A program made the position numbers and the translations under genes. From positions 1,116,001 through 1,180,000 of the forward strand of contig NZ_LVWJ02000014.1 in NCBI RefSeq assembly GCF_001625015.1: a stretch of 64,000 bases of DNA, written 5' to 3'. Below the pieces are notes generated by a model that was not told the DNA's origin, searched no databases, and saw only the letters and a program-made list of their open reading frames with translations. Every line of letters begins with the position of its first letter. The stretch's first letter is position 1. Below, piece by piece: positions 13,224 to 39,150 of this stretch. Source of the DNA: Lewinella sp. 4G2 (GTDB taxonomy: Bacteria > Bacteroidota > Bacteroidia > Chitinophagales > Saprospiraceae).

Positions 13224-14414
13224 AGGCGTGCCGACAGGCACACCGCTAACGTCCATCATCTCAAACGCCTCCCAGCTCGCCCCCGGCACCAGCCCCTTCC
13301 GGTAAGCCACGTGCACCCGGTGGATCTCCGTGTTCATCTGCCGGCAGGTATCGACCATGATCTTGTTGTGGCCCCGGATGGTGGCCATGTCGACGTACTT
13401 ATAGGTGCGGCTGGTGTGTTTGTTGCCGGATTGGAACATCGCGTCCACCATCAGCGGGTAGACGCCGAGGCGCTGGTGGTCCTGGGCGATGCCGAAGGCA
13501 ATTCCTTTACAGTTGCGGGGTTGCTTTTGGAATTTTAGCCGGTACAGGAATTTTGGTAAGCCGAAGAGCCCGAGGATACCGCCGGTCCCGTGCAAAAAGC
13601 AGTTAATGTCCGGAATTAGCCCGGCCAGGCCGACGGGGCGGTCGTCTTTATTGTAGGCGAGGCAGGTCAGGTGCGGGTCCATGATCGGCTTCATTTGCTG
13701 AAAGGTGGGCAGGATGTCCGCGCCACTCAGCGGTTTGAAGTAGGGCCAGTGGTTGAAGGCGGCGTTGTAGGCTTCGGCGAAGTCGTTCGCGCCCTGCTCA
13801 AGGTTATTCTTGTCGATCTGTTTGGTGTACAGCCCGTAGCGATCCCGCACCCGCGCGGCCAGTTTGCCGAGGCGTTCACCGGGGAATTCGGAGACCACGC
13901 CGCGCATCGTCAGGCACTGTTCGTGGGGTACGTAGCCGCGGTTCTCGAAGAAGCGTTCGTAGTACGCCGGGTTGTACGTTTCCTGGTAGATCGGGCGGTA
14001 GCGACCCCGAGTGAGGAGGCCCCAGAATTTATCCCGTTCCCCGAAGTTAATGGGGCCGTCGACGGCTTCCATTCCTTTCTCCCGGAGCCAGGTTTCGGCG
14101 GCGTCAAACAAAAGTTCGGCCACCTTCTCGTCTTCGGTGCTCTCAAAAAAACCGATTCCGCCCGTCGGTAAAGTCAGTTCTTGTTGCCGCGATTCATCGA
14201 TGAAGGCCGCGATTCTCCCCACCGGTTTGCGGTCCTTTTTCACTACCCAAAGTCGCAGATTATCGCCGGTATGCGCCGCATTCTTTTCGCTCAGAATGCC
14301 CTCGATATCCGTCCGTAGCGGGTATACGTACAGCGGGTCCTTCCGGTAAATGGTGTCAAGCACGTTGTGAAAATCCTTAAAGTCAGTAACGCGCTGGAGT
14401 TCGTAATTCGGCAT
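13221..14414 (-). CDS. GNAT-like acyltransferase family protein (function unknown)
   Basis: A 397-residue cytosolic protein conserved in Bacteroidota. The N-terminal part (about 1-130) has a GNAT-like pattern: LRLWVVKKDRKPVGRIAAFIDE, then GGIGFFESTEDE. The C-terminal part has a second acetyltransferase-like pattern (LAYNKDDRPVGLAGLIPD, KGIAFGIAQDHQRLGVYPLMVDAM). I infer a double-GNAT fold; substrate and reaction are unknown. A TATCTTTG promoter element ends four bases before the ATG, which implies a leaderless or very short-leader transcript. The stop codon falls inside a heptamer repeat. Confidence 0.75.
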   Translation of the reverse strand: MPNYELQRVTDFKDFHNVLDTIYRKDPLYVYPLRTDIEGILSEKNAAHTGDNLRLWVVKKDRKPVGRIAAFIDESRQQELTLPTGGIGFFESTEDEKVAELLFDAAETWLREKGMEAVDGPINFGERDKFWGLLTRGRYRPIYQETYNPAYYERFFENRGYVPHEQCLTMRGVVSEFPGERLGKLAARVRDRYGLYTKQIDKNNLEQGANDFAEAYNAAFNHWPYFKPLSGADILPTFQQMKPIMDPHLTCLAYNKDDRPVGLAGLIPDINCFLHGTGGILGLFGLPKFLYRLKFQKQPRNCKGIAFGIAQDHQRLGVYPLMVDAMFQSGNKHTSRTYKYVDMATIRGHNKIMVDTCRQMNTEIHRVHVAYRKGLVPGASWEAFEMMDVSGVPVGTP

Positions 14415-14418
14415 GGCG

Positions 14419-14426
14419 CAAAGATA
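14419..14426 (-). promoter_or_regulatory. Bacteroidota -7 promoter element TATCTTTG
   Basis: TATCTTTG matches the TAnnTTTG -7 consensus exactly and lies four bases upstream of the ATG of the GNAT-like gene. No clear -33 TTG was found at the usual spacing. Confidence 0.55.
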
Positions 14427-14437
14427 CGTGGTAAGTA

Positions 14438-14454
14438 GGCGCTGCCGCAGGTGC
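14438..14454. repeat. Copy of the 18-bp GC-rich motif (intergenic)
   Basis: GGCGCTGCCGCAGGTGC, a copy of the dispersed motif GGCGCTGCCGCRGGTGCC found about a dozen times in the window. It lies between the divergent GNAT-like and patatin genes. Confidence 0.85.
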
Positions 14455-14615
14455 TAAAAGATGACCAAGGGCTAAAAAATGAGAAGCAAGATCACGGTAG
14501 TGATCACCATGATAGCCCGGCATCAGCCAAGACCGCAGGTCGAAGCAGATGCCGGGCGAAAAGGTTTAGCTAGATCCAACTACCACCCTCACCAAATCCA
14601 TCCTAAATTACACCC

Positions 14616-16424
14616 ATGCCCACCCAACCCTACAAAGACGCCGTCTTCAACCTCCTCGAAGACCTCCGCCAGGAAGGCATCCACCAGCGCCGGTATTCGG
14701 ACGTCTACGATGCCGCCGGCAATCAGTACGTGAATTTCGTCCAGGAAGGTGGTGGCGTTCTCGGGCTCGCCCTCGTCGGCTACACCTACGTCCTGGAACA
14801 AATGGGCATCCGCTTCCTCGGGCTGGGGGGCACGAGCGCCGGCTCCATTAACACCCTGTTGCTGGCGGACGCCGGCCGCCCGGAGGAAGCCAAAAGCATG
14901 CGTGTACTCGATAAAGTGGCCCCAAAAAACTTTATGGACTTCGTTGACGGCGGCCCCGACGCCCAGGCCCTCATCACCGCCGCGGATAAGGGGATGCTCA
15001 CCAAGGTCTTCCAACTCATTCGTAATCTGGACGAGTTGTGGAACGACCTCGGCATCAATCCGGGCAAGGAATTCGAACGCTGGCTCCGCGCAAACCTCCA
15101 ACACGCCACGGTAACCGACCTACTGGAAAACCTTGCCGATCTGCCGTCGGATCTCCACCTGCGCGACGACCTCGGCCGGGAACGCTACCAACTCGCCGCC
15201 GAGGAGATTGGGCCCCGATTGGCCATCGTCGCGGCGGACATCACCACCCAGACCAAAGTGGACTTCCCCGCCATGGCCAGCCTGTACTACGCAAAGCCGG
15301 GGGAAGTCAACCCGGCGGAATTCGTCCGGGCAAGTATGTCCATCCCCGCCTTCTTCGAACCCCAACGCGTCAACCTGGGCTGGATCGACGAACTGCCCGA
15401 AGCCGAACGGGATGCCATGCGCCGCAGCTGGCGTAGGGAAGCCGCCTTCACCGGTAACTTACCGAAGGAGATCCTTTTCGCTGACGGTGGAATCATGAGC
15501 AATTTCCCCATCGATCTTTTTCACGGGGATAATCAGATTCCTAACCGGCCCACCTTTGGCGTCAAGTTGGGGATCGACCGTGCCGTAGCCCACCCCACTC
15601 ACTCCCTCATCAGTTTTGCGCGTACCATGTTTGACGGTGTCCGCAACCTACGGGACTTTGAATTCCTGCGCGCCAACCCCGAGTACAAGGACGTCGTAGA
15701 ATACATCCGGGTGGACGATTTCGACTGGCTCAACTTCGGCATCACCCACGAGGAAAAGCTGGCCCTTTTCCGCCGGGGCGCCGAGGCCGCGGCCCGGTTC
15801 CTGCGCCGCTTCAACTGGAAACGCTACAAGGCGACCCTCAACCGCAACCTCCTACAGCGGATCAAACCGGCCATGTGGCAACTTTCCGAACTCCGTAACC
15901 TGGAAGATATCCTGGAAGTCTTTGGCATCGTCGACGATAAGGCACTGATGGATAAGATCGAGTTCCTCCGCCAACGCCCGGTGAAGTACAAGGCGCTCTG
16001 GATCGACGACGCGTTTACCTACGCTCTACCCGTCGCCATCCTCGATGAGATGGGCGTCGACGTTATCGTCACCCGCTCCAGCCTGGACGCGTACGCCATC
16101 CTCCGCGCCCGCAACGTGGATAGCAAAGACCCCAACGAAAGGATCGACCTCATCATTTCCGACGCCAGCCGGCAGGAAGGGGGTGCTCCCGAAAGCAAGC
16201 GTGGCATCACCTTCGCGGAGCAACTCCTCCTCAGCCCCGCCTACGCCGAAATCCCCGTCCTCATCTACGCTCACGAGCGTACCGAGTTAGAAGTAAAGTA
16301 CCTGGCGGCGACGGGCAAGGAATTACCGGCCAACATCAAGAATAGCAGAAAGGTAAATACGATCGTGCACCGGCATTTAATTGCGGAGGTGGTGAATAGT
16401 GTTTATGGGCGGGTGGCTGAGTGA
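14616..16424 (+). CDS. Patatin-like phospholipase with C-terminal receiver-like domain
   Basis: A 602-residue protein. Residues about 40-300 are a patatin lipase domain: the oxyanion loop GGGVLGLAL, the nucleophile Ser74 in GGTSAGS, and the partner Asp290 in ADGGIMSNFP complete the Ser-Asp dyad expected to hydrolyse acyl lipids. Residues about 455-595 look like a response-regulator receiver fold: an acidic pair in ALWIDDAF (Asp464-465), a central Asp516 in LIISDAS, and a hydrophobic strand VLIYAHE. The canonical Thr and Lys switch residues are not evident, so phosphorylation is uncertain. No signal peptide is seen, so it is probably cytosolic. It stands alone between repeat-bearing gaps, with trmB about 100 bp downstream. 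Confidence 0.88.
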   Translation: MPTQPYKDAVFNLLEDLRQEGIHQRRYSDVYDAAGNQYVNFVQEGGGVLGLALVGYTYVLEQMGIRFLGLGGTSAGSINTLLLADAGRPEEAKSMRVLDKVAPKNFMDFVDGGPDAQALITAADKGMLTKVFQLIRNLDELWNDLGINPGKEFERWLRANLQHATVTDLLENLADLPSDLHLRDDLGRERYQLAAEEIGPRLAIVAADITTQTKVDFPAMASLYYAKPGEVNPAEFVRASMSIPAFFEPQRVNLGWIDELPEAERDAMRRSWRREAAFTGNLPKEILFADGGIMSNFPIDLFHGDNQIPNRPTFGVKLGIDRAVAHPTHSLISFARTMFDGVRNLRDFEFLRANPEYKDVVEYIRVDDFDWLNFGITHEEKLALFRRGAEAAARFLRRFNWKRYKATLNRNLLQRIKPAMWQLSELRNLEDILEVFGIVDDKALMDKIEFLRQRPVKYKALWIDDAFTYALPVAILDEMGVDVIVTRSSLDAYAILRARNVDSKDPNERIDLIISDASRQEGGAPESKRGITFAEQLLLSPAYAEIPVLIYAHERTELEVKYLAATGKELPANIKNSRKVNTIVHRHLIAEVVNSVYGRVAE

Positions 16425-16525
16425 CGGCAAAAACGAATGAAGAGGAGACAGTCCTTGAAAGAGCTGCGATGTTGTCAGAAGGATACAGTTTCTTTGCGCT
16501 TCAATAGTAAACGTTCTGTGTACCA

Positions 16526-17275
16526 ATGGCAACGAGAAACAAACTCCAAAAATTCGCCGAAATCCTCCAGATGCCCCACGTCTACGAGAACTTCGATCCC
16601 CGGAGCCCGGAACTCATCGGGGCCGGCGGCGAAGCCTGCGAGCGTAAGGGCAACTGGGCCAGGGCCCACTTCGGCAATGACAACCCCATTACCCTCGAAC
16701 TGGCCTGTGGCCGCGGTGAATACACCGTCGATCTCGCCCGGCAGTACCCGGACCGCAACTTCATCGGCGTCGACATCAAGGGTGCGCGCATCTGGAAGGG
16801 GGCCACGATCGCCCAGGAAGAAGGCCTGAAGAACGCCGCCTTTCTCCGGACCCGCATCGAGATCATCGCCCAGTTTTTCGGCCAGGGGGAGATCGATGAG
16901 ATCTGGATCACCTTCCCCGATCCATTCCTCAAAAAGGGCAAAGAAAACCGCCGGCTCACCGCCGCCCGCTACCTCAAGCAGTACCGCCACATCCTCAAGG
17001 AAAACGGTACCATCCACCTGAAAACCGACAGCCGCGACCTCTACGAGTGGACGCAGGAAACCTTCGCCCAACAACCCGCCGTCAAAGTCCTCTACCACGA
17101 CCACGACATTTACTCCAAACCCCTCCCCATCCCGGAACTCAGCACGGAGACCTACTACGAAAAACTCCACAAGGGGCTCGGGAAGACCATCACTTACACG
17201 CAGTTTCAACTGCTCCCCGGGGTGAAGATTATCGGTGGAAAGGGTATTCCTGGGTTTGAGGTGGAGGAGGAATAG
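16526..17275 (+). CDS. trmB: tRNA (guanine-N7-)-methyltransferase
   Basis: A 249-residue SAM-dependent enzyme that methylates G46 in the tRNA variable loop. LELACGRGEYTVDLA near residue 52 is the SAM-binding motif I. NFIGVDIKGARIWKG follows, and ITFPDPFLKKGKENRRL near residue 130 is the TrmB signature, a variant of FPDPWPKKRHHKRR. The length fits the family. The gene begins about 100 bp after the patatin gene and is followed by the 157-bp tandem repeat array. It is a housekeeping gene without visible oddity. Confidence 0.95.
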   Translation: MATRNKLQKFAEILQMPHVYENFDPRSPELIGAGGEACERKGNWARAHFGNDNPITLELACGRGEYTVDLARQYPDRNFIGVDIKGARIWKGATIAQEEGLKNAAFLRTRIEIIAQFFGQGEIDEIWITFPDPFLKKGKENRRLTAARYLKQYRHILKENGTIHLKTDSRDLYEWTQETFAQQPAVKVLYHDHDIYSKPLPIPELSTETYYEKLHKGLGKTITYTQFQLLPGVKIIGGKGIPGFEVEEE

Positions 17276-17296
17276 GTAGTATTGTCGTATCGATCT

Positions 17297-18070
17297 GGAC
17301 GCTCGCAGGACCTCCTGCGTCGGACGCTACGAGGACCTACATCATCGTAGTTTTCTACCCCCTGCCGCCTCCCACAGCTCCTCGTAGCGTCGATTTTATT
17401 GTAGCGCAGCGGAAATAGAATCGTCCTGCGAGCGTGCGGTCCAACACACAGCCGGACGCTCGCAGGACCTCCTTCGTCGGACGCTACGAGGACCTGCATT
17501 ATCGTAGTTCTCTATCGCTCCCCGCCTCCCACAGTTCCTCGTAGCGTCGATTTTATTGCAGCGCAGCGGAAATAGCATCGTCCTGCGAGCGTGCGGTCCA
17601 ACACACAGCCGGACGCTCGCAGGACCTCCTCCGTCGGACGCTACGAGGACCTACATCATCGTAGTTTTCTACCCCTCACCGCCTCCCCAGCTCCTCGTAG
17701 CGTCGTTTCTATTGTAGCGCAGCGGAAATAGAATCGTCCTGCGAGCGTGCGGTCCAACACACAGCCGGACGCTCGCAGGACCTCCTGCGTCGGACGCTAC
17801 GAGGACCTACATCATCGTAGTTTTCTACCCCCTCCCGCCTCCCACAGCTCCTCGTAGCGTCGATGCTATTGCAGCGCAGCGGAAATATAATCGTCCTGCG
17901 AGCGTGCGTCCAAACACACAGCCGGACGCTCGCAGGACCTCCTGCGTCGGACGCTACGAGGACCTACATCATCGTAGTTTTCTACCCCCTCCCGCCTCCC
18001 ACAGTTCCTCGTAGCGTCGATTTTATTGTAGCGCAGCGGAAATAGAATCGTCCTGCGAGCGTGCGGTCAA
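17297..18070. repeat. Five tandem 157-bp repeats with nested inverted repeats
   Basis: Units begin with GGACGCTCGCAGGACC at 17297, 17454, 17611, 17767 and 17924, giving a period of 156-157 bp and very few differences. Within each unit CGCTCGCAGGAC pairs with GTCCTGCGAGCG near its end, and CGACGCTACGAGGA with a TCCTCGTAGCGTCG copy further in, so every unit can fold into a nested two-stem hairpin. The array fills the gap between trmB and the aldehyde dehydrogenase (convergent). No credible coding frame runs through it. Confidence 0.95.
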
Positions 18071-18086
18071 ATCTCCGTCGCCCCCC

Positions 18087-19523
18087 CTACAACCACCCAT
18101 AAATCCGTCGCACCAACCCCACCACCTTATCCGTATACGGCGGGTACGCTACGCTCAGATCCAGGAATTTGCGCTCCATCACCGCCCGTTCGTTGGAGAA
18201 CTCCACGAAACCGTGGTAGCCGAAGGACTTCCCGATCCCGGAATTATTCACCCCACCGAAGGGGACCGTCGGGGAGCCACCGCCCAGTAGGTATTCGTTG
18301 ACGAGCAGGCCGCCGGAACTCGTTTCCCGCTTCAGTTTATTGATCGTTTGGCGGTTATTGGATTGGATGTAAAAGGACAGCGGCTTCGGCCGGCGGTTGA
18401 TGATGGCCACGGCTTCGTCCAAGTCTTGATAGGTGACGACGGGCCAGAGCGGGCCGAAGATCTCTTCCGTCATGATGTCCATTTCTTCCGTCACGTCGGT
18501 CAGGATGGTGGGAGCAATGTAGCGGTCTGCGGCGTTGAACTGCCCGCCACAAACTACGGTGGCGCCCTTCGCGACCGCGTCGTCAAATAGCGCCTTGATA
18601 CGCTGGAAATGGCGGTCGGTAATGACGCGGGCGAGGCTGTCCGATTGCTGTGGGTCCTCCCCGTAAAAGCGGGTGATCGACGCGGCAAGTTCACCGACGT
18701 AGCTATCCGCCATGTCTTCGGGTACCAGGACGTAATCCGGCGCAATGCAGGTTTGGCCCGCGTTGAAGAACTTTCCCCACGCGGTATTCTCGGCTGATTT
18801 TCGCTGGTTCACTCCGCGGTCGATCACGGCGGGTGATTTGCCGCCGAGTTCCAGCGTCACGCTCGTCAGGTTTTTCGCGGCGGCGGCCATCACCTTTTTG
18901 CCGATGGCGGGGCTGCCGGTGAAGAAAATGTGGTCGAAGGGCAACGTCGTCAAAAACGCGGCGGTATCGCCTTCGCCCGTCACCACTTTTACCTCCTTTT
19001 CTTCGAATAATTCGTCGAGCATTCGCCGCATGAAGTCGGTCGTGGCGGGGCTCATTTCCGAAGGCTTCACGACCGCCGTACACCCGGCCGCAATGGCGTA
19101 CACCAGGGGCACGAGCGTCAGGTTAAACGGGTAGTTCCACGGGGCGATAATCAGAGCGCTGCCCTTCGGTTCGAGGTAGAGGTAGCTCGTAATCCCGGTC
19201 AGCGCGAGGGCGCCGGGCAGCTTCTTCGGTTCCATCCATTTTTTGAGGTTGGACCGCACGTGGCGCAGGTGGCTCAGCACCACGCCCAGCTCGCTCGTGA
19301 GCGTTTCTACCTCCGGTTTTTTGAAGTCGGCTTGCAGCGCGGCCACCAGTCCGCGCACGTTTTCCTTTTTATTTAGCCAGGCTTCCATCCGGTCCAGTTT
19401 CGCTTTGCGCTGCGCGGCCGTTTGGGCGCTCAACGCGGGTGCAAAGTTCCGTTGCAAGTGGAGTAAGGACCGCAATTGCGCTTCCGTATGGCTCGCCGTG
19501 GTGGAGGGTGGATTCTTCGACAT
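18087..19523 (-). CDS. Aldehyde dehydrogenase (ALDH3-like)
   Basis: A 478-residue NAD(P)-dependent enzyme oxidising aldehydes to acids. LELGGKSPAVID carries the catalytic base glutamate and FFNAGQTCIAPDYVL the nucleophile cysteine. FFTGSPAIGKKVM is the coenzyme-binding loop. The C-terminus (PPYTDKVVGLVRRIYGWL) resembles the extended tail of class 3 / fatty aldehyde dehydrogenases that often touches the membrane. The ATG at 19523 (MSKNPPST) gives normal family length; an in-frame ATG 25 codons upstream is less likely. A TAACTTTG promoter element lies about 77 bp upstream. Its 3' end abuts the 157-bp array. Confidence 0.93.
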   Translation of the reverse strand: MSKNPPSTTASHTEAQLRSLLHLQRNFAPALSAQTAAQRKAKLDRMEAWLNKKENVRGLVAALQADFKKPEVETLTSELGVVLSHLRHVRSNLKKWMEPKKLPGALALTGITSYLYLEPKGSALIIAPWNYPFNLTLVPLVYAIAAGCTAVVKPSEMSPATTDFMRRMLDELFEEKEVKVVTGEGDTAAFLTTLPFDHIFFTGSPAIGKKVMAAAAKNLTSVTLELGGKSPAVIDRGVNQRKSAENTAWGKFFNAGQTCIAPDYVLVPEDMADSYVGELAASITRFYGEDPQQSDSLARVITDRHFQRIKALFDDAVAKGATVVCGGQFNAADRYIAPTILTDVTEEMDIMTEEIFGPLWPVVTYQDLDEAVAIINRRPKPLSFYIQSNNRQTINKLKRETSSGGLLVNEYLLGGGSPTVPFGGVNNSGIGKSFGYHGFVEFSNERAVMERKFLDLSVAYPPYTDKVVGLVRRIYGWL

Positions 19524-33033: not shown

Positions 33034-33071
33034 TGGGGAAGTTGGATTAGGAGCGGGGTGAGGTGGCTCGG

Positions 33072-33176
33072 TTCCCGACCTCCGGTCGGGATTTTAAGGA
33101 TTTTGGGTTTACCCGGCTCCCGGCCTCCAGGCCGGGTTTCTTTCCGGTACGTCGACCTTTAGGTCGATGCTTAATG
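33072..33176. repeat. Cluster of short hairpins preceding large hairpin A
   Basis: Three small palindromes in a row: CCCGACCTCCGGTCGGGA, CCCGGCCTCCAGGCCGGG and GTCGACCTTTAGGTCGAT. Each is a perfect or near-perfect stem with a 2-4 base loop. The same modules precede large hairpins B and C, and related ones flank D. Confidence 0.85.
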
Positions 33177-33190
33177 TCGTATCTATTCTA

Positions 33191-33422
33191 CCACTTCTTT
33201 TGTGCCCAAAAGAAGCAAAAGTCTTGTCCTTTGCAGGTGGCTTAACGCGATTTCTGGATGGAAAAGCTAAAATCTGCAAACTCGCCAATCAATTTGTTCG
33301 CTGAGCCTAATTCTTTCGATTGCATTATCCAAAGGGGCAAAATATATAATCTTGTGCGAGCTCGAACAGTGCAGATTTCTTCACGCTTTTCCATCCAGAA
33401 ATCACTACCACCTGCAAGGGAC
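33191..33422 (+). repeat. Large hairpin element, copy A
   Basis: A small hairpin ACTTCTTTT/AAAAGAAG (33193-33214) leads into a 197-bp fold (33226-33422). The base stem is GTCCTTTGCAGGTGG with CCACCTGCAAGGGAC (15 pairs, one G-T). The middle stem is GATTTCTGGATGGAAAAGC with its perfect 19-bp complement. The upper stem is AATCTGCA/TGCAGATT. Unpaired CTTAACGC and TTCTTCAC sit on opposite arms. It is followed by GGATAAATTACC and a heptamer tail. A 64-codon minus frame inside is not a gene. Confidence 0.9.
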
Positions 33423-33473
33423 GGATAAATTACCAAGGATTAAAAAGGTTACAAAAGGATTAATAGATGGCCA

Positions 33474-33551
33474 TCTAAAATCCAAAATCTAACGTCTAAA
33501 ATCCCTACCTAAATCAGTCCTCACATATCACCTATCAAATATCACATATCC
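33474..33551. repeat. Heptamer arrays at the tail of hairpin A (H4)
   Basis: Words TCTAAAA, TCCAAAA, TCTAACG, TCTAAAA (33474-33505), then CACATAT, CACCTAT, CAAATAT, CACATAT (33522-33550). The first set is shared by the tails of hairpins B and C; the second holds the TGA stop of the DUF3095 gene at 33542-33544. Confidence 0.85.
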
Positions 33552-34699
33552 TTCATCTTCCCCTTCAACATCCTTGCCGCACTAGTATACCCCCCTTCCG
33601 TAGCGTCCAAAAAATGCACGTGGTCTTCGTCGTGATCGCGGACGTAGCAGGACATTACGGAGGCGTGGGTGGCGTGGAGGCCGTAGATCAACTTGCCCTC
33701 CGCTTCGCGTTGCTCTAAATATATTTTTAATTGCTCGATCTGGGCGGTCGTGCCGGAAATGACGGTATTGATGTTGCCATCCAGCATGAGGCTATCGATG
33801 AGTTGGGCGATTTTGGCGAGGTAGTTTTTGCCGGCTTCGGTGCGTTTGAAGTACCAGGGGCCGTAGAGGGTCGCGACCCAGTTCAGGAGGAGGTAACGGA
33901 GTTTGAAACGGCCGAGGTTGGCGTACATCTCGCGAGCAATGTTCATCAGGCCGAGATTGAGTTTCAGGCGGTTGGTGGCGATGGGGCGGCGGCGTTCCAG
34001 CCGGCCGAAGATCTGGTCGAGGCGGGACATCACTTCGCCGTAGACGCGGCCCTGCAATTCATCTTCATTGGAACTGACGATGAGGCAGACGATCCGCTCG
34101 GCGTCGCGTGGTGGTTCGATTTCGTTCCAGCGGCATTCCATCCCGGTGAGGTCGATCTCGGCGAGTTCGGCGGCTAGGGCTTCATCGTCCACGAAGCTGG
34201 CTTTAATGCGTCGTTCCGCTTCCTTCAGCCCGTTACCCAGTACGACGGGGATCGCGTAAAGGGGCGTCACCCAGGCGCGGGCGATGCGGATGGTGGTGCC
34301 ACCCACATAAACGTCGGCTACCGGAAGGGCGCCTACGCGGAGGATGAGCTCCATTCTCTGTTTTACGTGTTTCCGGTAATTATCCAGAGCATCTACGAGT
34401 TCGAGGGCCAGTTCTTCTGGTACCACGAAAGTGGCGCCGTCCCCACCGAAGAAGTAGGGGATGGTCAGCCCACCGTGCTTGGCCTTCAATCGGTTGAGGA
34501 CCGTTACGATGCCACCCGTTGCGGCCAGGTTCACGTCGTGGTGCTTCCCCCGCGCGACGGCCTGGGTGGAGCCCATGATGTCCACCACGATCACGTGCCA
34601 ATCTTCCGGTACGGGCGTGAAGCGGCTTTCCTGGCCGAGGAGGGTGGAGAGTTTGGTCCGGTGGACGGGTAGGTTTTGGAAGAAGGTTTGGTTGGACAT
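33542..34699 (-). CDS. DUF3095 family protein (nucleotidyl-cyclase-like)
   Basis: A 385-residue cytosolic protein matching the DUF3095 family, thought to be related to class III adenylate/guanylate cyclases. VIVVDIMGSTQAVARGK (near residue 38) has the metal-binding Asp of the cyclase fold, and IPYFFGGDGATFVVP (near residue 83) the second acidic motif. LRVGALPVADVYVGGTTIRIARA follows. The later part (about 230-385) is a separate domain ending ATHASVMSCYVRDHDEDHVHFLDATEGGY. Whether it makes a cyclic nucleotide is unknown. It stands alone between two blocks of large hairpin elements, and its stop codon is in a heptamer array. Confidence 0.78.
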   Translation of the reverse strand: MSNQTFFQNLPVHRTKLSTLLGQESRFTPVPEDWHVIVVDIMGSTQAVARGKHHDVNLAATGGIVTVLNRLKAKHGGLTIPYFFGGDGATFVVPEELALELVDALDNYRKHVKQRMELILRVGALPVADVYVGGTTIRIARAWVTPLYAIPVVLGNGLKEAERRIKASFVDDEALAAELAEIDLTGMECRWNEIEPPRDAERIVCLIVSSNEDELQGRVYGEVMSRLDQIFGRLERRRPIATNRLKLNLGLMNIAREMYANLGRFKLRYLLLNWVATLYGPWYFKRTEAGKNYLAKIAQLIDSLMLDGNINTVISGTTAQIEQLKIYLEQREAEGKLIYGLHATHASVMSCYVRDHDEDHVHFLDATEGGYTSAARMLKGKMKDM

Positions 34700-34740
34700 T
34701 TCGGGGGTAGAACGTGCATAAAGGTTGGTTGTGCGCTTCC

Positions 34741-34870
34741 CTGGTTCCCGACCTCCGGTCGGGATTTACTCCAGGTACGTCGACCTTTAGGTCGATGCTT
34801 AACGCGGTTACGCTTCCGGCTCCCGGCCTCCAGGCCGGGCTTTCTTCCGGTACGTCGAGTTTAGGTCGAT
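34741..34870. repeat. Cluster of short hairpins preceding large hairpin B
   Basis: CCCGACCTCCGGTCGGGA, GTCGACCTTTAGGTCGAT, CCCGGCCTCCAGGCCGGG and a decayed GTCGAGTTTAGGTCGAT follow one another, in the same orientation as in copy A. Confidence 0.8.
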
Positions 34871-34893
34871 GCTTTACGTCGTGTTTTATCTAG

Positions 34894-35246
34894 CACTTCT
34901 TTTGTAGCCACCACGCAGTAGCAGCGCAGCTAAAAGAAGCTAAGCCTTTACCCTTTGCAGGTGGTTTAACGTTGTGTCTTTTCTATCACTTCTTTTGTAG
35001 CCAAAAGAAGCAAAAGCTTTGTCCTTTGCAGGTGGCTTAACGCGAAATTTCTTCGGATTGGCTAAACGCTGCAACTCTGAGGAGGAACGACGATCAGCGA
35101 AGCTAAACTCGCTCAACGATCTGTCTTTCAAGCACCGATCTACGTTTGCATAAGACTCTGGTTTCAGGCAATGACAGTATCAGCTCGGACAGTGCAGCGT
35201 TCTTAACGCCAATCCGAAGAAATTTCACTACCACCTGCAAGGGACG
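34894..35246 (+). repeat. Large hairpin element, copy B, with partial upstream duplicate
   Basis: A partial duplicate (34894-34970) contains an ACTTCTTTT hairpin interrupted by CCACGCAGTAGCAGCGCAGC, then a truncated 5' arm. The full element runs 35021-35246 (226 bp). It has the same base stem as copy A, but the middle stem is GAAATTTCTTCGGATTGGC with a perfect 19-bp complement and the upper stem is AACGCTGCA/TGCAGCGTT. The stem sequences differ from copy A while pairing is kept. Confidence 0.9.
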
Positions 35247-35297
35247 GATAAATTACCATAAAATAAAAAAGTAGTAAATGCATTAAGAGGGAGGCCC

Positions 35298-35328
35298 TCT
35301 AAAATCCAAAATCTAACGTCTAAAATCT
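35298..35328. repeat. Heptamer tail of hairpin B (H5)
   Basis: TCTAAAA, TCCAAAA, TCTAACG, TCTAAAA, the same words as after hairpins A and C. The TAG stop of the next gene (35320-35322) lies in the last word. Confidence 0.85.
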
Positions 35329-35850
35329 CTTTTTTAAATAAACCGTCTGGTGCAAGCCCACCGTCAACCCCACCACCTTAATCGGCTCCTTCCCTTCCAA
35401 CTCCGTCACGCGCTCAGTATCGGATTTCGCAGCGAATAAATCCCATAAAAGCGTGTCGTCAGGTAGTCGGCGAAGGGTGGAGATATAGGTGCTGCCCATC
35501 ACGGTGTACATACCGTAGAAGCAGTCGTTCATCAGGGTTTGGTCCATCGTGATGCCGTTGCGTTCGTCGAGGATGAAATGGGTTGTGTCACCGGCGGTTT
35601 GGGCGACCAATTGGTAATCCTTGGTGATGACGCCGTATTGCTCACTGTTGAATACCATGCGGTGGATGTATACGGAGTCCGCGATTAATTCCTCTAGCGT
35701 AAAGGTCACAGGGACGGTGGCGTTGGCTTGGCCTGCGTTGCCGATGATCATTGTGCCGTCGTAGTCACCGACCCATTTATTGGGGAAAGTGGTTTGGGCA
35801 GTTAATGAAATAGTGATTATTAGTAGGAGTAGGGTTAATAAGCTTTTCAT
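35320..35850 (-). CDS. Small exported protein of unknown function
   Basis: A 176-residue protein with a signal peptide (MKSLLTLLLLIITISLTAQ, cleavage near residue 19). The mature part opens TTFPNKWVGDYDGTMIIGN and is rich in beta-type segments with Thr/Asp, like small lipocalin-like or DUF secreted domains of Bacteroidota, but I recognise no family. Start 35850 is supported by the clean signal peptide and by a TACCTTG element six bases before the ATG. It is isolated between hairpin blocks B and C. Its stop codon is inside a heptamer array. Confidence 0.7.
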   Translation of the reverse strand: MKSLLTLLLLIITISLTAQTTFPNKWVGDYDGTMIIGNAGQANATVPVTFTLEELIADSVYIHRMVFNSEQYGVITKDYQLVAQTAGDTTHFILDERNGITMDQTLMNDCFYGMYTVMGSTYISTLRRLPDDTLLWDLFAAKSDTERVTELEGKEPIKVVGLTVGLHQTVYLKKRF

Positions 35851-35856
35851 AGGTGG

Positions 35857-35863
35857 CAAGGTA
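35857..35863 (-). promoter_or_regulatory. Start-proximal -7-like element TACCTTG
   Basis: TACCTTG, then CCACCT, then the ATG at 35850, mirroring the arrangement at 20339-20345. Confidence 0.4.
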
Positions 35864-35879
35864 GGGAGTTACCCGGTTC

Positions 35880-36165
35880 CCGGTACGTCGACCTTTAGGT
35901 CGATGCTTAACGTCGTGTCTTTTCTATCACTTCTTTTCAGATGACCACGCAGTAGCAGCGCAGCTAAAAGAAGCAAAAGTTTTGTCCTTTGCAGGTGGCT
36001 TAACGCGATTACGCTTACGGTTCCCGACCTCCGGTTGGGATTTCAAGGTGGTAATCGTTCCTAATAAATTGTACAGAAGCGAAGAGCTATTTCTCTTGCT
36101 GGCTTACCGCGATTTCGCTTACGGCTCCCGGCCTCCGGGCCGGGTTTTTGAATATCTACCTTTCT
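35880..36165 (+). repeat. Truncated hairpin element and short-hairpin modules
   Basis: GTCGACCTTTAGGTCGAT is followed by an ACTTCTTTT hairpin with a CCACGCAGTAGCAGCGCAGC insertion, then the 5' arm GTCCTTTGCAGGTGG-CTTAACGCG at 35984. The arm breaks off into TTACGCTTACGG and short hairpins related to CCCGACCTCCGGTCGGG and CCCGGCCTCCGGGCCGGG. No 3' arm is present, so this copy cannot fold like A-D. Confidence 0.8.
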
Positions 36166-36175
36166 CTCCCGTTTA

Positions 36176-36406
36176 GCACTTCTTTTCAAGCGAAAAGAAG
36201 CAAAAGCTTTGTCCTGTAACCGTGGCTTAACGCGATTTCAACGGCAGAAAGCTAAAATTTGCCAACTCGCCAACGACCTTTTGTTTCAAGCTTTGGGTCT
36301 TCCGTTTACAGCTAATTGGTGGGCAATGCTTTAATTCTTCGCAGCTCAAACAGTGCAAATTTCTTCACGCTTTCTGCCGCTGAAATCACTACCACGGTTA
36401 AGGGAC
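36176..36406 (+). repeat. Large hairpin element, copy C
   Basis: After an ACTTCTTTT hairpin, the fold runs 36211-36406 (196 bp). The base stem is GTCCTGTAACCGTGG with CCACGGTTAAGGGAC, different from A and B but still paired. The middle stem is GATTTCAACGGCAGAAAGC with a complement carrying one mismatch; the upper stem is AATTTGC/GCAAATT. CTTAACGC and TTCTTCAC are again unpaired. Confidence 0.9.
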
Positions 36407-36456
36407 GAATAAATTACTATAGATTAAAAAGTAGTAAAAAGATTAAGGGGAGGCGG

Positions 36457-36488
36457 TCTAAAATCCAAAATCTAACGTCTAGAATCCC
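36457..36488. repeat. Heptamer tail of hairpin C (H6)
   Basis: TCTAAAA, TCCAAAA, TCTAACG, TCTAGAA: the same 7-bp words as after hairpins A and B. Confidence 0.85.
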
Positions 36489-36497
36489 ACCAACACC

Positions 36498-36514
36498 GCA
36501 CCTGCGGCAGCGCC
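36498..36514. repeat. Copy of the 18-bp GC-rich motif (intergenic)
   Basis: GCACCTGCGGCAGCGCC directly followed by ACGCAGTA, the start of the CACGCAGTAGCAGCG word seen inside other hairpin loops. Confidence 0.85.
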
Positions 36515-36609
36515 ACGCAGTAAGTTCCGTACGCTGTCGGAGCGCCGTATTATTGCGTTTGAATTAATCTTGTACTTTCAATAAGTGTCTGGCCCCCAAA
36601 CAAAAAGAA

Positions 36610-37584
36610 ATGCCACAGTACCGACTCCTTCTCACCCTACCACTACTCCTGATTTTGACCGCCTGCGTAAGCCCTCGAGTGACAAATAACACGCCATTCA
36701 AAGGCAGGTACGCAGAAACTTATGCACCCGGCGAAGTGGAACTGCTGAGTATGTACCAGTACGTGCAGACCAAACGTGGCGATACCTACATCTACCGCCG
36801 CTTCTACCCCGAAACGAAGGTGATGACCCACTACACGGAATACCAGGACGAGACGTTTACTCGCCCCCACGGCACCGCCAAAGAATGGTTCGACGATGGT
36901 GCCCTGATGCTCGAAGGCGAATACCGCAACGGTAAGCAGGAAGGCACTTTCACCGAGTATTTCCCGGACGGCCAGGTATATGCTACCCGCATCTACCGCG
37001 GCGGAGAACCCGACGGGAAATGGATCTTCAACACCCAGAAAGACAGCTCTGCCGCCCGGCTGTTTATGGAACGGCATTACGTTGATGGCCAACAAGAAGG
37101 CACCGAAACCACCTACGACGAAGACGGCCAGCCCACCAAAATTGATACCTACGAAAAAGGTGAATTGATCTCCACCCAGTACCGCCAGGATGGCAAGTGG
37201 GTCGACGAATCTACCTGGCGCGCCCAGAACAACGAGCTCGATAAACTCCAACAACTCCCCCTCTTCCCCGGCTGCCCGGATGGTGAGCCGTACGAAGACC
37301 GCAAACGCTGCGCCGACCGTAAACTCCTCGAACACATCTACGGGAAAGTGCGGTACTCCGAACGGGCGCGGCAACTGGAAGTAGAAGGCCTCGCTAAAGT
37401 CAGTTTTGTGATCGAAAAGGATGGCACGCTTACCAACATCAAAGTACTACGCGGCCTCAACCGGGATATCGAACGCGAAGTCATCCGCATTATCAACTCC
37501 CTCCCCGTTTGGGAACCAGGCCGGCAGGACGGGGAACCCGTGCGGGTAAGCTTCACGCTGCCGGTGAAGTTCCAATTAACCTAA
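36610..37584 (+). CDS. MORN-repeat lipoprotein with C-terminal TonB-like domain
   Basis: A 324-residue lipoprotein (lipobox LTAC, Cys19). Residues about 80-200 hold MORN-type repeats (WFDDGALMLEGEYRNGKQEG, YFPDGQVYATRIYRGGEPDG, YDEDGQPTKIDTYEKGEL) like those of YwqK-family proteins. The C-terminus (about 225-324) resembles a TonB C-terminal domain: LPLFPGCPDGEPYEDRKRCAD and GLAKVSFVIEKDGTLTNIKV with LPVWEPGRQDGEPVRVSFTLPV. TonB-like domains touch outer-membrane receptors; as an anchored lipoprotein its role here is unclear. It is a single gene after hairpin block C, convergent with the ROK gene. Confidence 0.85.
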   Translation: MPQYRLLLTLPLLLILTACVSPRVTNNTPFKGRYAETYAPGEVELLSMYQYVQTKRGDTYIYRRFYPETKVMTHYTEYQDETFTRPHGTAKEWFDDGALMLEGEYRNGKQEGTFTEYFPDGQVYATRIYRGGEPDGKWIFNTQKDSSAARLFMERHYVDGQQEGTETTYDEDGQPTKIDTYEKGELISTQYRQDGKWVDESTWRAQNNELDKLQQLPLFPGCPDGEPYEDRKRCADRKLLEHIYGKVRYSERARQLEVEGLAKVSFVIEKDGTLTNIKVLRGLNRDIEREVIRIINSLPVWEPGRQDGEPVRVSFTLPVKFQLT

Positions 37585-37605
37585 ATCCCGCTGAGAAAAC
37601 GGCGT

Positions 37606-37736
37606 GACTATAGACTATAAACTACAGACTAGAAACCGGCCGCTCCAGGAACACCAAAATGTCGCTCCGCTCGGTTTTGGCGCCGCCTGAAGGGTCTAAT
37701 TACTAAAGACTAAAGACTAAAGACTAAAGACTAAAG
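37606..37736. repeat. Heptamer-repeat block H7
   Basis: Left array GACTATA, GACTATA, AACTACA, GACTAGA. The core contains CCGGCCGCTCCAG, also in block H1, and AAAATGTCGCTCCGCTCGG. The right array is five perfect ACTAAAG heptamers. The TAG stop of the ROK gene (37731-37733) lies in the last heptamer. Confidence 0.9.
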
Positions 37737-38618
37737 CAGCGCCGCCCCAAACACCCCCGCCGAATCCCCCAACTCCGGCCGCAAAAACACCGTATCCATC
37801 CGAGGATTAAAGAGGTGATCCACCACTTGCGGAATCCCCTTTTCGTACAACTCCGCCACGTTACTGAGGCCACCGCCTAGGACGATCACGTCGGGGTCCA
37901 GGACGTTGATGATTGTCGCGATACCCTTCGCAAAGAAGTGGAGCCACCGGTCGATGGCCTGCACCGCGTGCGGTTCGCCGGCCCGGTAGCGGGGGATGAT
38001 CTCCTTCACCGTCCGGTAAGTCCCCGCCAAATTCGCGTAGTACCGCTCGATGGCCGGCCCGGACAAGATCTGCTCCGCGCACCCCACCCGGCCGCAGTAG
38101 CAATAACCGCCGGAATTGTCCAGGAACATATGACCCCACTCGCCACCAATGCCCTGCGCGCCACCCAGAATTTTACCGTCAATGACGATCCCGCCACCCG
38201 TTCCGGTACCGAGGATGACGCCGAAGACAACCTTCGCATTCGGCACTGCCGCCGGCACCCCTCCCAGCAAGGTTTCCGCGACGGCAAAACAGTTCGCATC
38301 ATTCGCCAGCGTAAGCGGCACGCCAATGGCTGCCTCCAGATCCTTCCCCAACGCTTTCCCGTTCAGCACCACCGTATTGGAGTTCTTCATCAGCCCCGTG
38401 GGTGGGTCAATCGTCCCCGGCGTCGCCACCCCGATGTGCTCAGGAACCAACCCGGTAGCACTTTTCATCTCTTCCACCAACAACGCAATGCGGCTGACGA
38501 TGTGTGCGTACCCCCCTTCCCGCTGCGTATCGATCCGCCGCCGATCAATAACCGTTCCGGCTTCATCAAGAATGATCCCCTCAATTTTGGTGCCGCCCAA
38601 GTCGATGCCCCATTTCAT
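37731..38618 (-). CDS. ROK family sugar kinase (glucokinase-like)
   Basis: A 295-residue cytosolic kinase phosphorylating glucose or a related sugar. KWGIDLGGTKIEGIILDE at the N-terminus is the phosphate-1 motif, LANDANCFAVAE contains the catalytic Asp, ILGTGTGGGIVIDG is phosphate-2, and GGYCYCGRVGCAEQILSGPAIE carries the zinc-binding CxCGxxGC motif of ROK proteins; LGGGLSN is the adenosine motif. There is no DNA-binding domain, so it is a kinase and not a repressor. Exact sugar specificity is unknown, but it could feed glucose from the amylase into glycolysis or to Zwf. Its stop is in a heptamer array. Confidence 0.93.
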   Translation of the reverse strand: MKWGIDLGGTKIEGIILDEAGTVIDRRRIDTQREGGYAHIVSRIALLVEEMKSATGLVPEHIGVATPGTIDPPTGLMKNSNTVVLNGKALGKDLEAAIGVPLTLANDANCFAVAETLLGGVPAAVPNAKVVFGVILGTGTGGGIVIDGKILGGAQGIGGEWGHMFLDNSGGYCYCGRVGCAEQILSGPAIERYYANLAGTYRTVKEIIPRYRAGEPHAVQAIDRWLHFFAKGIATIINVLDPDVIVLGGGLSNVAELYEKGIPQVVDHLFNPRMDTVFLRPELGDSAGVFGAALL

Positions 38619-38639
38619 ATTGTCTAATGTTGCTTACGG

Positions 38640-38690
38640 GGTAAGGTAGGGATTGAATTTTGGAGGATAGATTTTGGATTTTGGACGGCC
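38640..38690. repeat. Heptamer-like tail of hairpin D (H8)
   Basis: GAATTTT, GGAGGAT, AGATTTT, GGATTTT, GGACGGC in 7-bp steps. Read on the minus strand this is the TCCAAAATCTA-type tail that also follows hairpins A-C. Confidence 0.75.
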
Positions 38691-38742
38691 TTGTGCCACC
38701 CCTCAATCCTTTTGCTATTTCTCGATTCACGGTAGGTTTTCC

Positions 38743-38966
38743 GTCCCTTGACTGTGGTAGTGATTTCCCGGCGGGAGAGCGTTAAGAAATCTGCACTGTT
38801 CGAGCGCGCGATAGGTTGAATAGCAACCCTGAAGAATGATGCAATCGACAGATTTAGTCTCAGTGCTAAAATCGATTGGCGAGTTTGCAGATTTTAGCTC
38901 TTCCGCCGGGAAATCGCTACCACAGTCACAGGACAAGACTTTTGCTTCTTTTGGTCACAAAAGAAG
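38743..38966 (-). repeat. Large hairpin element, copy D (inverted)
   Basis: On the minus strand an ACTTCTTTTGTGACC hairpin leads into the 192-bp fold (38934 to 38743). The base stem is GTCCTGTGACTGTGG with CCACAGTCAAGGGAC. The middle stem is GATTTCCCGGCGGAAGAGC with GCTCTCCCGCCGGGAAATC (one mismatch). The upper stem is AATCTGCA/TGCAGATT. A TTCTTAAC loop is on the 3' arm; the 5' internal loop is shortened to TAGC. A 69-codon minus frame inside is not called as a gene. Confidence 0.9.
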
Positions 38967-39009: not shown

Positions 39010-39150
39010 AGGTCATAGGGTAGACCTTAAGGTCAACCTACCGGTATTTTCGCCTAAAGGTCAACCACCCAGTAATGCCGCCTAAAGGTCAACCACCCAG
39101 TAGTTGGAAAAAAAACAGATCCTAAAATCCCGACCTGAGGTCGGAAACCC
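39010..39150. repeat. Short-hairpin modules beside hairpin D
   Basis: GACCTTAAGGTC, two GCCTAAAGGTCAACCACCCAGTA copies about 33 bp apart, and CCCGACCTGAGGTCGG. These are the counterparts of the small palindromes that precede hairpins A-C, here on the outer side of the inverted copy. Confidence 0.75.

Follow-up and report, generated by a model that had tools for sequence, protein, structure and literature searches.

A dispersed, pseudoknotted element of Lewinella sp. 4G2 whose stems change in compensated pairs on one strand

Repetitive extragenic palindromic (REP) sequences and bacterial interspersed mosaic elements (BIMEs) are thought to be handled by a single-stranded DNA (ssDNA) transposase, and attC sites are sequence-variable hairpins that are recognized as one folded strand. 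The element described here, which is about 200–245 nt long in Lewinella sp. 4G2, invites comparison with both. Four of its copies (A–D) lie in a 64,000-nt stretch of that genome (NCBI RefSeq assembly GCF_001625015.1, contig NZ_LVWJ02000014.1, positions 1,116,001 to 1,180,000), referred to below as the window. The initial annotation of the window had reported them as large hairpins whose stems change in sequence while remaining paired; model R2 places all four copies at the sites then given, and the stem sequences quoted for them are correct. One strand of the element, the reverse complement of that first read, is shown below to be kept foldable, with stems that change in compensated pairs.

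The REP/BIME repeats of REP-associated tyrosine transposases (RAYTs; PMC6006769) resemble the element: they are palindromes scattered between genes, occur as head-to-head pairs or in arrays of alternating orientation, and have one strand that is presumed to be active, although they measure 20–40 nt against the element's 200–245 nt. The element differs further in its conserved internal loops between free stems and its pseudoknot, and it was not found beside the Y1_Tnp genes tested. It also carries no constant unpaired GTAG or CGTC end tag: TAG occurs only in an internal loop, in 37 of 58 aligned rows, and the ends of the element (CGGCC or CGTCC) vary between genomes. The nearest printed lead, also in PMC6006769, is the mention of 'atypical secondary structures' adjoining the subclass 2.6 TnpA_REP genes of Bacteroidetes, which were compared with the element by description only.

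CGTC-tagged palindromic repeats, as presented in PMC3733652, are likewise dispersed, occur also in Bacteroidetes and have no transposase found adjoining them; however, their stems measure 8–9 bp and their loops 4–5 nt, and the element ends in CGTCC only in some species. At the base of its hairpin, the element lacks the RYYYAAC/GTTRRRY motifs of attC sites and varies in sequence, whereas an attC-like array in the same genome does possess these motifs. The FopS small RNA (sRNA) family of Bacteroides is, like the element, a multicopy family in Bacteroidota, but in PMC11697453 it is described as a single-stranded 5′ part with a terminator and is stated to have been deposited in Rfam, whereas Rfam contains no match for the element. 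That paper also mentions an sRNA family of Bacteroides with six members, adjoining transposases or invertases. Rfam 15 gave no match in the window and none on the element in 11 loci, even at E values up to 5, and a word search of open-licence papers, together with six 16-letter forms of the tip, found no description of the element. The earlier statement that no described family has this layout thus held in Rfam 15 and the open-licence literature.

Compensated stems on one strand

Alignments A3 and A4 were made with model R1 and fitted to the listed strand, that is, the strand read in the initial annotation; they share genomes, and A3 includes three rows from the Lewinella sp. 4G2 genome, one of which repeats another in reverse reading. 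Two alignments made with MAFFT only served to repeat the key count, namely A2, which contains copies from this genome, and A6, which contains 58 of 66 selected copies (full-length, less than 72 % identical within A3 and within A4; 55 distinct and three duplicates). In the 58 diverse copies, aligned from sequence only, 89.9 % of the stem cells pair, compared with 59.1 % after shuffling, double changes occur at 38 of the 42 pairs, and the covariation score reaches 0.763, against 0.216 for shuffles and 0.13–0.22 for slid partners; five of five measures lay above all 500 shuffles. The 102 model-fitted rows, all but three of them from other genomes, gave 89.6 % pairing versus 55.5 % shuffled and a double change in 42 of 42 pairs, while their further pair types (122 versus 134) were not above shuffles. 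Among 31 of the 34 own-genome copies, aligned with MAFFT only, 98.0 % of the stem cells pair versus 78.7 % after shuffling, a value reached by 0 of 500 shuffles; their covariation score of 0.482 compares with 0.154 for shuffles and 0.02–0.12 for slid partners. Two of the five measures applied to these copies failed to exceed the shuffles, namely the pairs changed on both sides (22 versus 20.7) and the further pair types (36 versus 37.8).

Relatedness was handled by means of 78 disjoint near pairs of copies, nearness being judged from non-stem columns only. Cells changed on both sides numbered 157, compared with 19.5 expected under independent change, in near pairs that are not all independent because A3 and A4 share some genomes. 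A change from one Watson–Crick pair to another accounts for 121 of the 157, and 91 of 175 one-sided changes leave a standard pair on the folded strand. The suggestion of selection on a folded RNA or ssDNA, made in the initial annotation, is supported by the excess over shuffles, over slid controls and over independent change in the near pairs.

The strand chosen in the initial annotation was the wrong one. On the listed strand, A·C cells outnumber G·T cells both in A3 (185 versus 94, of which 70 are at one fixed pair) and in A4 (161 versus 81, of which 59 are at the fixed pair). A model-free comparison of the arms gave A·C to G·T counts of 93 versus 11 (A3) and 53 versus 16 (A4) in relatives, and of 9 versus 8 in the own copies of A2, the 8 being probably mostly at the fixed pair. 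The excess of A·C indicates that it is the reverse complement that folds and is under selection; for copies A, B and C this means the minus strand, and for copy D the plus strand. On this strand, the 58 diverse rows contain 157 G·U cells (6.7 %) versus 33 A·C cells (1.4 %), counted over 41 pairs with the near-fixed pair left out, in a set with three duplicate rows and with cells that are not independent. When all 42 pairs are considered, 27 have an excess of G·U and four an excess of A·C. Purine–purine cells outnumber pyrimidine–pyrimidine cells in the diverse set (141 versus 59), and own copies alone display a small excess (G·U 12 versus A·C 5). Since several G·U minorities occur at columns in which A-U is the commonest pair, a C-to-T bias alone is insufficient to account for them. 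The U–G wobble reported earlier as kept in all four base stems is present on the listed strand in 31 of 31 copies, whereas on the folded strand the same site is C·A, a fixed non-canonical pair.

From its foot inwards, the hairpin of the folded strand is built of an outer and a base stem, an internal loop that is asymmetric, a middle stem, a second loop of the same kind in the opposite sense, an inner stem and the tip. Its 5′ side starts with CGGnCCUU or CGUCCCUU, and there the base stem is followed by a short loop side (UAG, or CCG/CCA), the middle stem, a GUUAA-type loop and the inner stem. The tip is nearly invariant (CUGUnUGAGC...GCGAGUUU) and encloses a variable loop, of about 70 nt in the own genome, while on the 3′ side GCGAGUUU is followed by the inner stem, UUUUAG, the middle stem, GUUAAG or GAUCAG, the base stem, ACAGnC and a small hairpin (HP1). 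The asymmetric internal loop is often GUUAA and, in some genomes, GAUCA. Both internal loops are of the same motif kind and flank the middle stem in opposite sense. In counts made without a control over the 58 rows, 34 rows have exact GTTAAA/G on the inner 5′ side; its count on the outer 3′ side is likewise 34, and 10 further rows have GATCAG there. A UAG-like motif stands on the inner 3′ side in 47 rows, and 37 rows have TAG on the outer 5′ side. This loop dyad around the middle stem is what would be expected of a site for two protein subunits. The unpaired islands are conserved across the phylum.

GCGNAGC is an unusually stable DNA mini-hairpin. Where the element takes a compact form, in distant genomes, its tip reads CUGUYUGAGC-GNA-GCGAGUUU, in which all four letters occur at N, and the presence of GCGNAGC in this tip is a hint of ssDNA rather than a test of it.

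The main hairpin of the initial annotation is real, but the element is larger and also comprises HP1 and a pseudoknot, in which the loop of this 3′ hairpin pairs with the segment directly after the main hairpin. Loop and partner covary, the variants including CTTGAT/ATCAAG, CTTGAC/GTCAAG, CTTGCT/AGCAAG, AAAGAT/ATCT, AAAGGC/GCCT and AGGCA/TGCC. The test used 212 rows; short rows, rows close to the end of a contig and rows lacking a clear hairpin had been dropped. A weighted score of at least 6 was reached by 15 % of 134 distinct cases, compared with 2 % when loops were swapped and 2 % when they were shuffled, and a score of at least 4 by 44 %, compared with 18 and 17 %, respectively. In copy A, the pseudoknot is broken (score 1).

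Copies, arrays and neighbouring genes

The Lewinella sp. 4G2 genome contains 34 distinct full copies (36 model matches, two of which are reverse readings of listed places), and 62 when partial matches found by BLAST are included. Model R1 detected related copies in 15 of 59 relatives, the own genome not among them, and in 12 of 21 genomes of the genus, the own genome counted. In a phylum sample of 395 genomes, model R2 found the element in 20, that is, in 19 besides the own genome, which is a lower bound because six candidates were scored per genome. The genomes of the R1-based alignments overlap with the named records. The compact tip was found in 6 of the 395 genomes of the class, with zero backward-control matches among those listed. 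One compact-form pattern scan matched eight genomes, but its backward control matched in seven, and one of the eight (G224) was without the layout on reading. The pattern-scan matches listed include Neolewinella aurantiaca, N. antarctica, N. marina, Lewinella, Aureispira, Phaeodactylibacter, Chitinophagales, Flavobacteriaceae and the Bacteroidetes metagenome-assembled genome (MAG) RUG13852, which we take to be from the rumen. A Thaumarchaeota MAG with a pattern match had no R1 match and a Clostridiaceae MAG scored 53.7 bits with R1; both are probably chance matches or binning errors. In viral contigs, the compact pattern occurred in two stretches, one (L328) with a strong R2 score (70.5 bits) and the other with a weak one (17 bits), while the long-loop pattern gave no match; the plasmid collection contained no match for the one compact copy used as query.

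Many copies lie between mostly unrelated genes and, in some species, form pairs or alternating arrays. Neolewinella aurantiaca has an 11-copy array in which the orientation alternates strictly and the stems are of two types, each type pairing within itself; inverted pairs occur in five genomes (G002, G003, G005, G014 and G015), direct repeats about 480–506 nt apart in G020 and a direct array of six copies in G267. In the own genome, copies are mostly single, without alternating pairs or arrays. They are accompanied by end fragments on the expected side, a 3′ end on the 3′ side in 14 of 34 and a 5′ end on the 5′ side in 12 of 34, compared with 4 of 34 and 1 of 34 on the wrong side and 1.2 and 0 % in shuffles; the fragments look as if copies had landed in older copies. 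With respect to the upstream gene, 16 of the 30 own-genome copies scored are sense and 14 antisense. In a set from other genomes, which includes three own-genome rows, 92 of 152 are sense and 60 are not, although arrays make these orientation counts non-independent.

Clustering of the open reading frames (ORFs) around the loci revealed no partner gene. It gave at least about 12 cross-genome locus pairs with a homologous ordinary gene, mostly on the other side or in the other sense, and the ORFs inspected in the largest cluster (10 loci) overlay repeat arrays. An island in genome G295 (L318, 6806-13483) shows compact elements alternating with genes, which by their translations encode two ATPases (identical over the 90 residues seen), a RelE/XRE-like pair and a Fic-like protein; four consecutive elements there lie 60–107 nt past gene ends, on the opposite strand.

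The acting form and the acting enzyme

The element is tentatively considered to be a non-autonomous dispersed repeat recognized as a folded single strand by a trans-acting enzyme, with ssDNA slightly preferred to RNA, a reading to which we give just under an even chance. One strand would fold, its shape would be read by an enzyme acting in trans and, by analogy with REP/BIME repeats, recognition of the folded single-stranded form may lead to spread between sites. The preference for ssDNA over RNA is weak, and derives from the loop dyad, from the fact that no clear promoter was found and from a fold quality that is independent of the direction of the upstream gene. Somewhat more doubtful is the broader possibility that the element represents an undescribed, phylum-wide mobile nucleic acid, pseudoknotted and dyad-symmetric, with free stems but fixed internal loops and tip, which an enzyme in a new role would copy between intergenic sites via the folded RNA or ssDNA of the element itself. 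As RNA, it would constitute a new class of mobile RNA; as ssDNA, it would be akin to the REP repeats but far larger and more elaborate. The question raised is what protein reads the shape of such a folded strand, and the analysis supplies a strand to probe as well as a model, R2, that is ready for annotating genomes.

Mobility is deduced from the way in which copies and end fragments are distributed, and several observations weigh against a freely mobile ssDNA element. No mobility gene recurs beside the element in a Pfam scan of 131 flanking ORFs, chosen among the 230 from other genomes within a total of 283 (53 being from the own genome): among the top 25 of 153 families, none occurred in more than two flanking ORFs and none was a transposase. 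PADLOC, applied to three neighbours, found nothing, and none of 30 Y1_Tnp (RAYT) loci of relatives has an element match beside it. Copy A precedes clpB by 303 nt, and in a Bacteroidia MAG (L124, 35-233) a copy with different stems precedes the clpB of that genome by 290 nt, in the same sense. They may represent one shared old copy whose stems changed in place, or a chance coincidence, and the near-identical distance and sense in two genomes suggest that some copies may be old and fixed. Moreover, the pseudoknot and the G·U pairs are no less typical of RNA than of DNA, the excess of sense copies outside the own genome is what a transcribed element predicts, and the −7 box of Bacteroidota is slightly commoner upstream of the element than in shuffled sequences (6.9 versus 4.4 %).

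The best-surviving alternative, possible yet less probable than either proposal above, is a structured noncoding RNA, perhaps retro-mobile or ribozyme-like, which would be made by read-through or from an unseen promoter and held in its active form by the pseudoknot and loops. The G·U excess (6.7 versus 1.4 % of cells), the covarying 3′ pseudoknot and the unpaired islands conserved across the phylum all agree with such an RNA, as does, mildly, the sense orientation of 92 of the 152 copies; the folded strand of copy A is also more stable as RNA (−103.6 kcal/mol, z −8.8) than the other strand (−94.2 kcal/mol), its value as DNA being −54.4 kcal/mol (z −7.5). On the other hand, the exact −7 box (TAnnTTTG) was found upstream of only 14 of 202 copies, compared with 89 of 2020 shuffled sequences, and the opposite strand had it in 5 of 202 cases, so that, by this exact box alone and in these 202 copies, no clear promoter of its own was found. 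Pairing is also no worse where read-through of the folded strand is not expected, the means for copies with and without possible read-through being 0.992 and 0.977 in the own genome (P=0.63), and 0.936 and 0.937 (P=0.96) and 0.922 and 0.926 (P=0.86) in two other sets. The absence of Rfam matches also argues against an RNA.

An outsized REP/BIME family moved by a RAYT (TnpA_REP) is unlikely. The alternating arrays and inverted pairs would fit, and Y1_Tnp genes are present in 23 of the 24 genomes tested, but they are also present in 8 of 9 tested genomes of the genus without a detected element. Furthermore, no element adjoins the 30 Y1_Tnp loci of relatives, there is no constant GTAG foot, and the six own Y1_Tnp loci gave weak matches only, the best of which, in L034, turned out on reading to be another palindrome. 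Four of these six own genes (L031, L032, L033 and L034) each adjoin tandem or palindromic repeats of their own, and in L034 a GTAG is seen by eye before the palindrome.

It is very improbable, and mostly refuted, that the copies are attC-like sites of an integron-type tyrosine recombinase. Such sites are used as a folded single strand, the G295 island alternates genes and elements, and IntI-like recombinases occur in 27 of 37 genomes, two of which have a copy 2–3 kb from one. However, these recombinases occur in 20 of 21 genomes of the genus, including some without a detected element, the ends of the element have no R boxes, and an integron integrase scores above the NCBIfam cut-off in only 2 of 21 carriers; the IntI-like recombinase of G003 has only 31 % identity. 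The IntI-like gene of the own genome (L339, 9249-10064, in G000:C14, about 2.05 Mb from the window; TIGR02249 217.9 bits, below the cut-off of 265) is followed by a separate array of four 243-nt repeats (13395-18247), 1.3–2 kb apart and with classical GCCCAAC...GTTGGGC ends, which are unlike the element. The genome thus seems to hold a chromosomal integron, beside whose IntI-like gene there are only these other repeats and no element. Taken together, the results for RAYT loci and integrons indicate that the element is neither an attC site nor found flanking a RAYT. The integrases above the cut-off belong to two distant Bacteroidota (G276:C75:16115-17053, 462.9 bits; G093:C8:49143-49853, 328.2 bits, with an internal stop).

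The initial annotation had also allowed for arm-to-arm gene conversion, and this process, or template switching, could keep the arms alike without selection for folding, as the joint differences of whole stem blocks between own-genome subfamilies and the weak strand asymmetry of the own copies (12 versus 5; 9 versus 8) might suggest. Both processes are blind to strand, whereas the relatives show very unequal numbers of A·C and G·T and the pseudoknot, formed by a loop and a separate segment, covaries as well, so that conversion alone is not supported and has hardly any probability left. A cis-acting untranslated-region element of the neighbouring genes, such as a terminator, RNA stabilizer or riboswitch, is equally remote, for although the copies are intergenic and 92 of the 152 outside the own genome share the sense of the upstream gene, the own genome has 16 sense and 14 antisense copies, neighbouring genes are mostly unrelated and arrays occur without genes.

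Copies and other repeats in the window

The main hairpin of copy A occupies 33224..33423 on the minus strand (R2 140.9 bits, E 1.4e-31), with its HP1 at 33194..33215 (minus), the loop of which has no match to the pseudoknot partner. The main hairpins of copies B (35019..35246; 117.5 bits) and C (36209..36407; 136.0 bits) are on the same strand, with HP1 at 34989..35010 and 36179..36200, respectively, and in copy C the HP1 loop GCTT pairs with AAGC adjoining the main hairpin. Copy D is inverted, its folded strand being the plus strand (main hairpin 38742..38936, 121.4 bits; HP1 38945..38966). A lone 3′-end fragment of another copy lies at 35966..36014 (minus), about 250 nt from copy C. A probable degraded 3′-end fragment, recognized from direct repeat D5, adjoins copy B at 34932..34971 (minus) and was missed by the fuzzy pattern used for the end-fragment scan. 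RNA folding of the listed strand gave −94.2, −108.7, −81.6 and −102.8 kcal/mol for A, B, C and D, the z-scores being −8.6, −8.9, −5.7 and −9.7; no shuffle among 200 folded as well. The neighbouring genes in the window are mutually unrelated and encode a ClpB-like protein, a DUF3095 protein, an orphan, a TonB_C/MORN protein and a ROK-family protein; the window contains no tRNA.

Copy B carries 32 extra nucleotides directly inside the inner stem (35073-35104, minus), an example of an optional CTGAGGAGGAACGACGATCAGCGAAGCT-like insert of about 30 nt that occurs at this place in several species (L116, L073, L074 and L075) and, reversed, in the HP1 loops of others (L080 and L064). Other short palindrome families (GTCGACCTTTAGGTCGA and CCCGACCTCCGGTCGGG) crowd the same intergenic regions, in the window at 33069-33174, 34742-34877, 35870-35915, 36018-36148 and 39123-39149. 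A CTAAAATC-type repeat tract, which was not seen in the copy flanks inspected from six other genomes, lies past the 5′ side of the folded strand in own-genome copies, in the window at 33469-33505, 35292-35329, 36450-36488 and 38657-38691.

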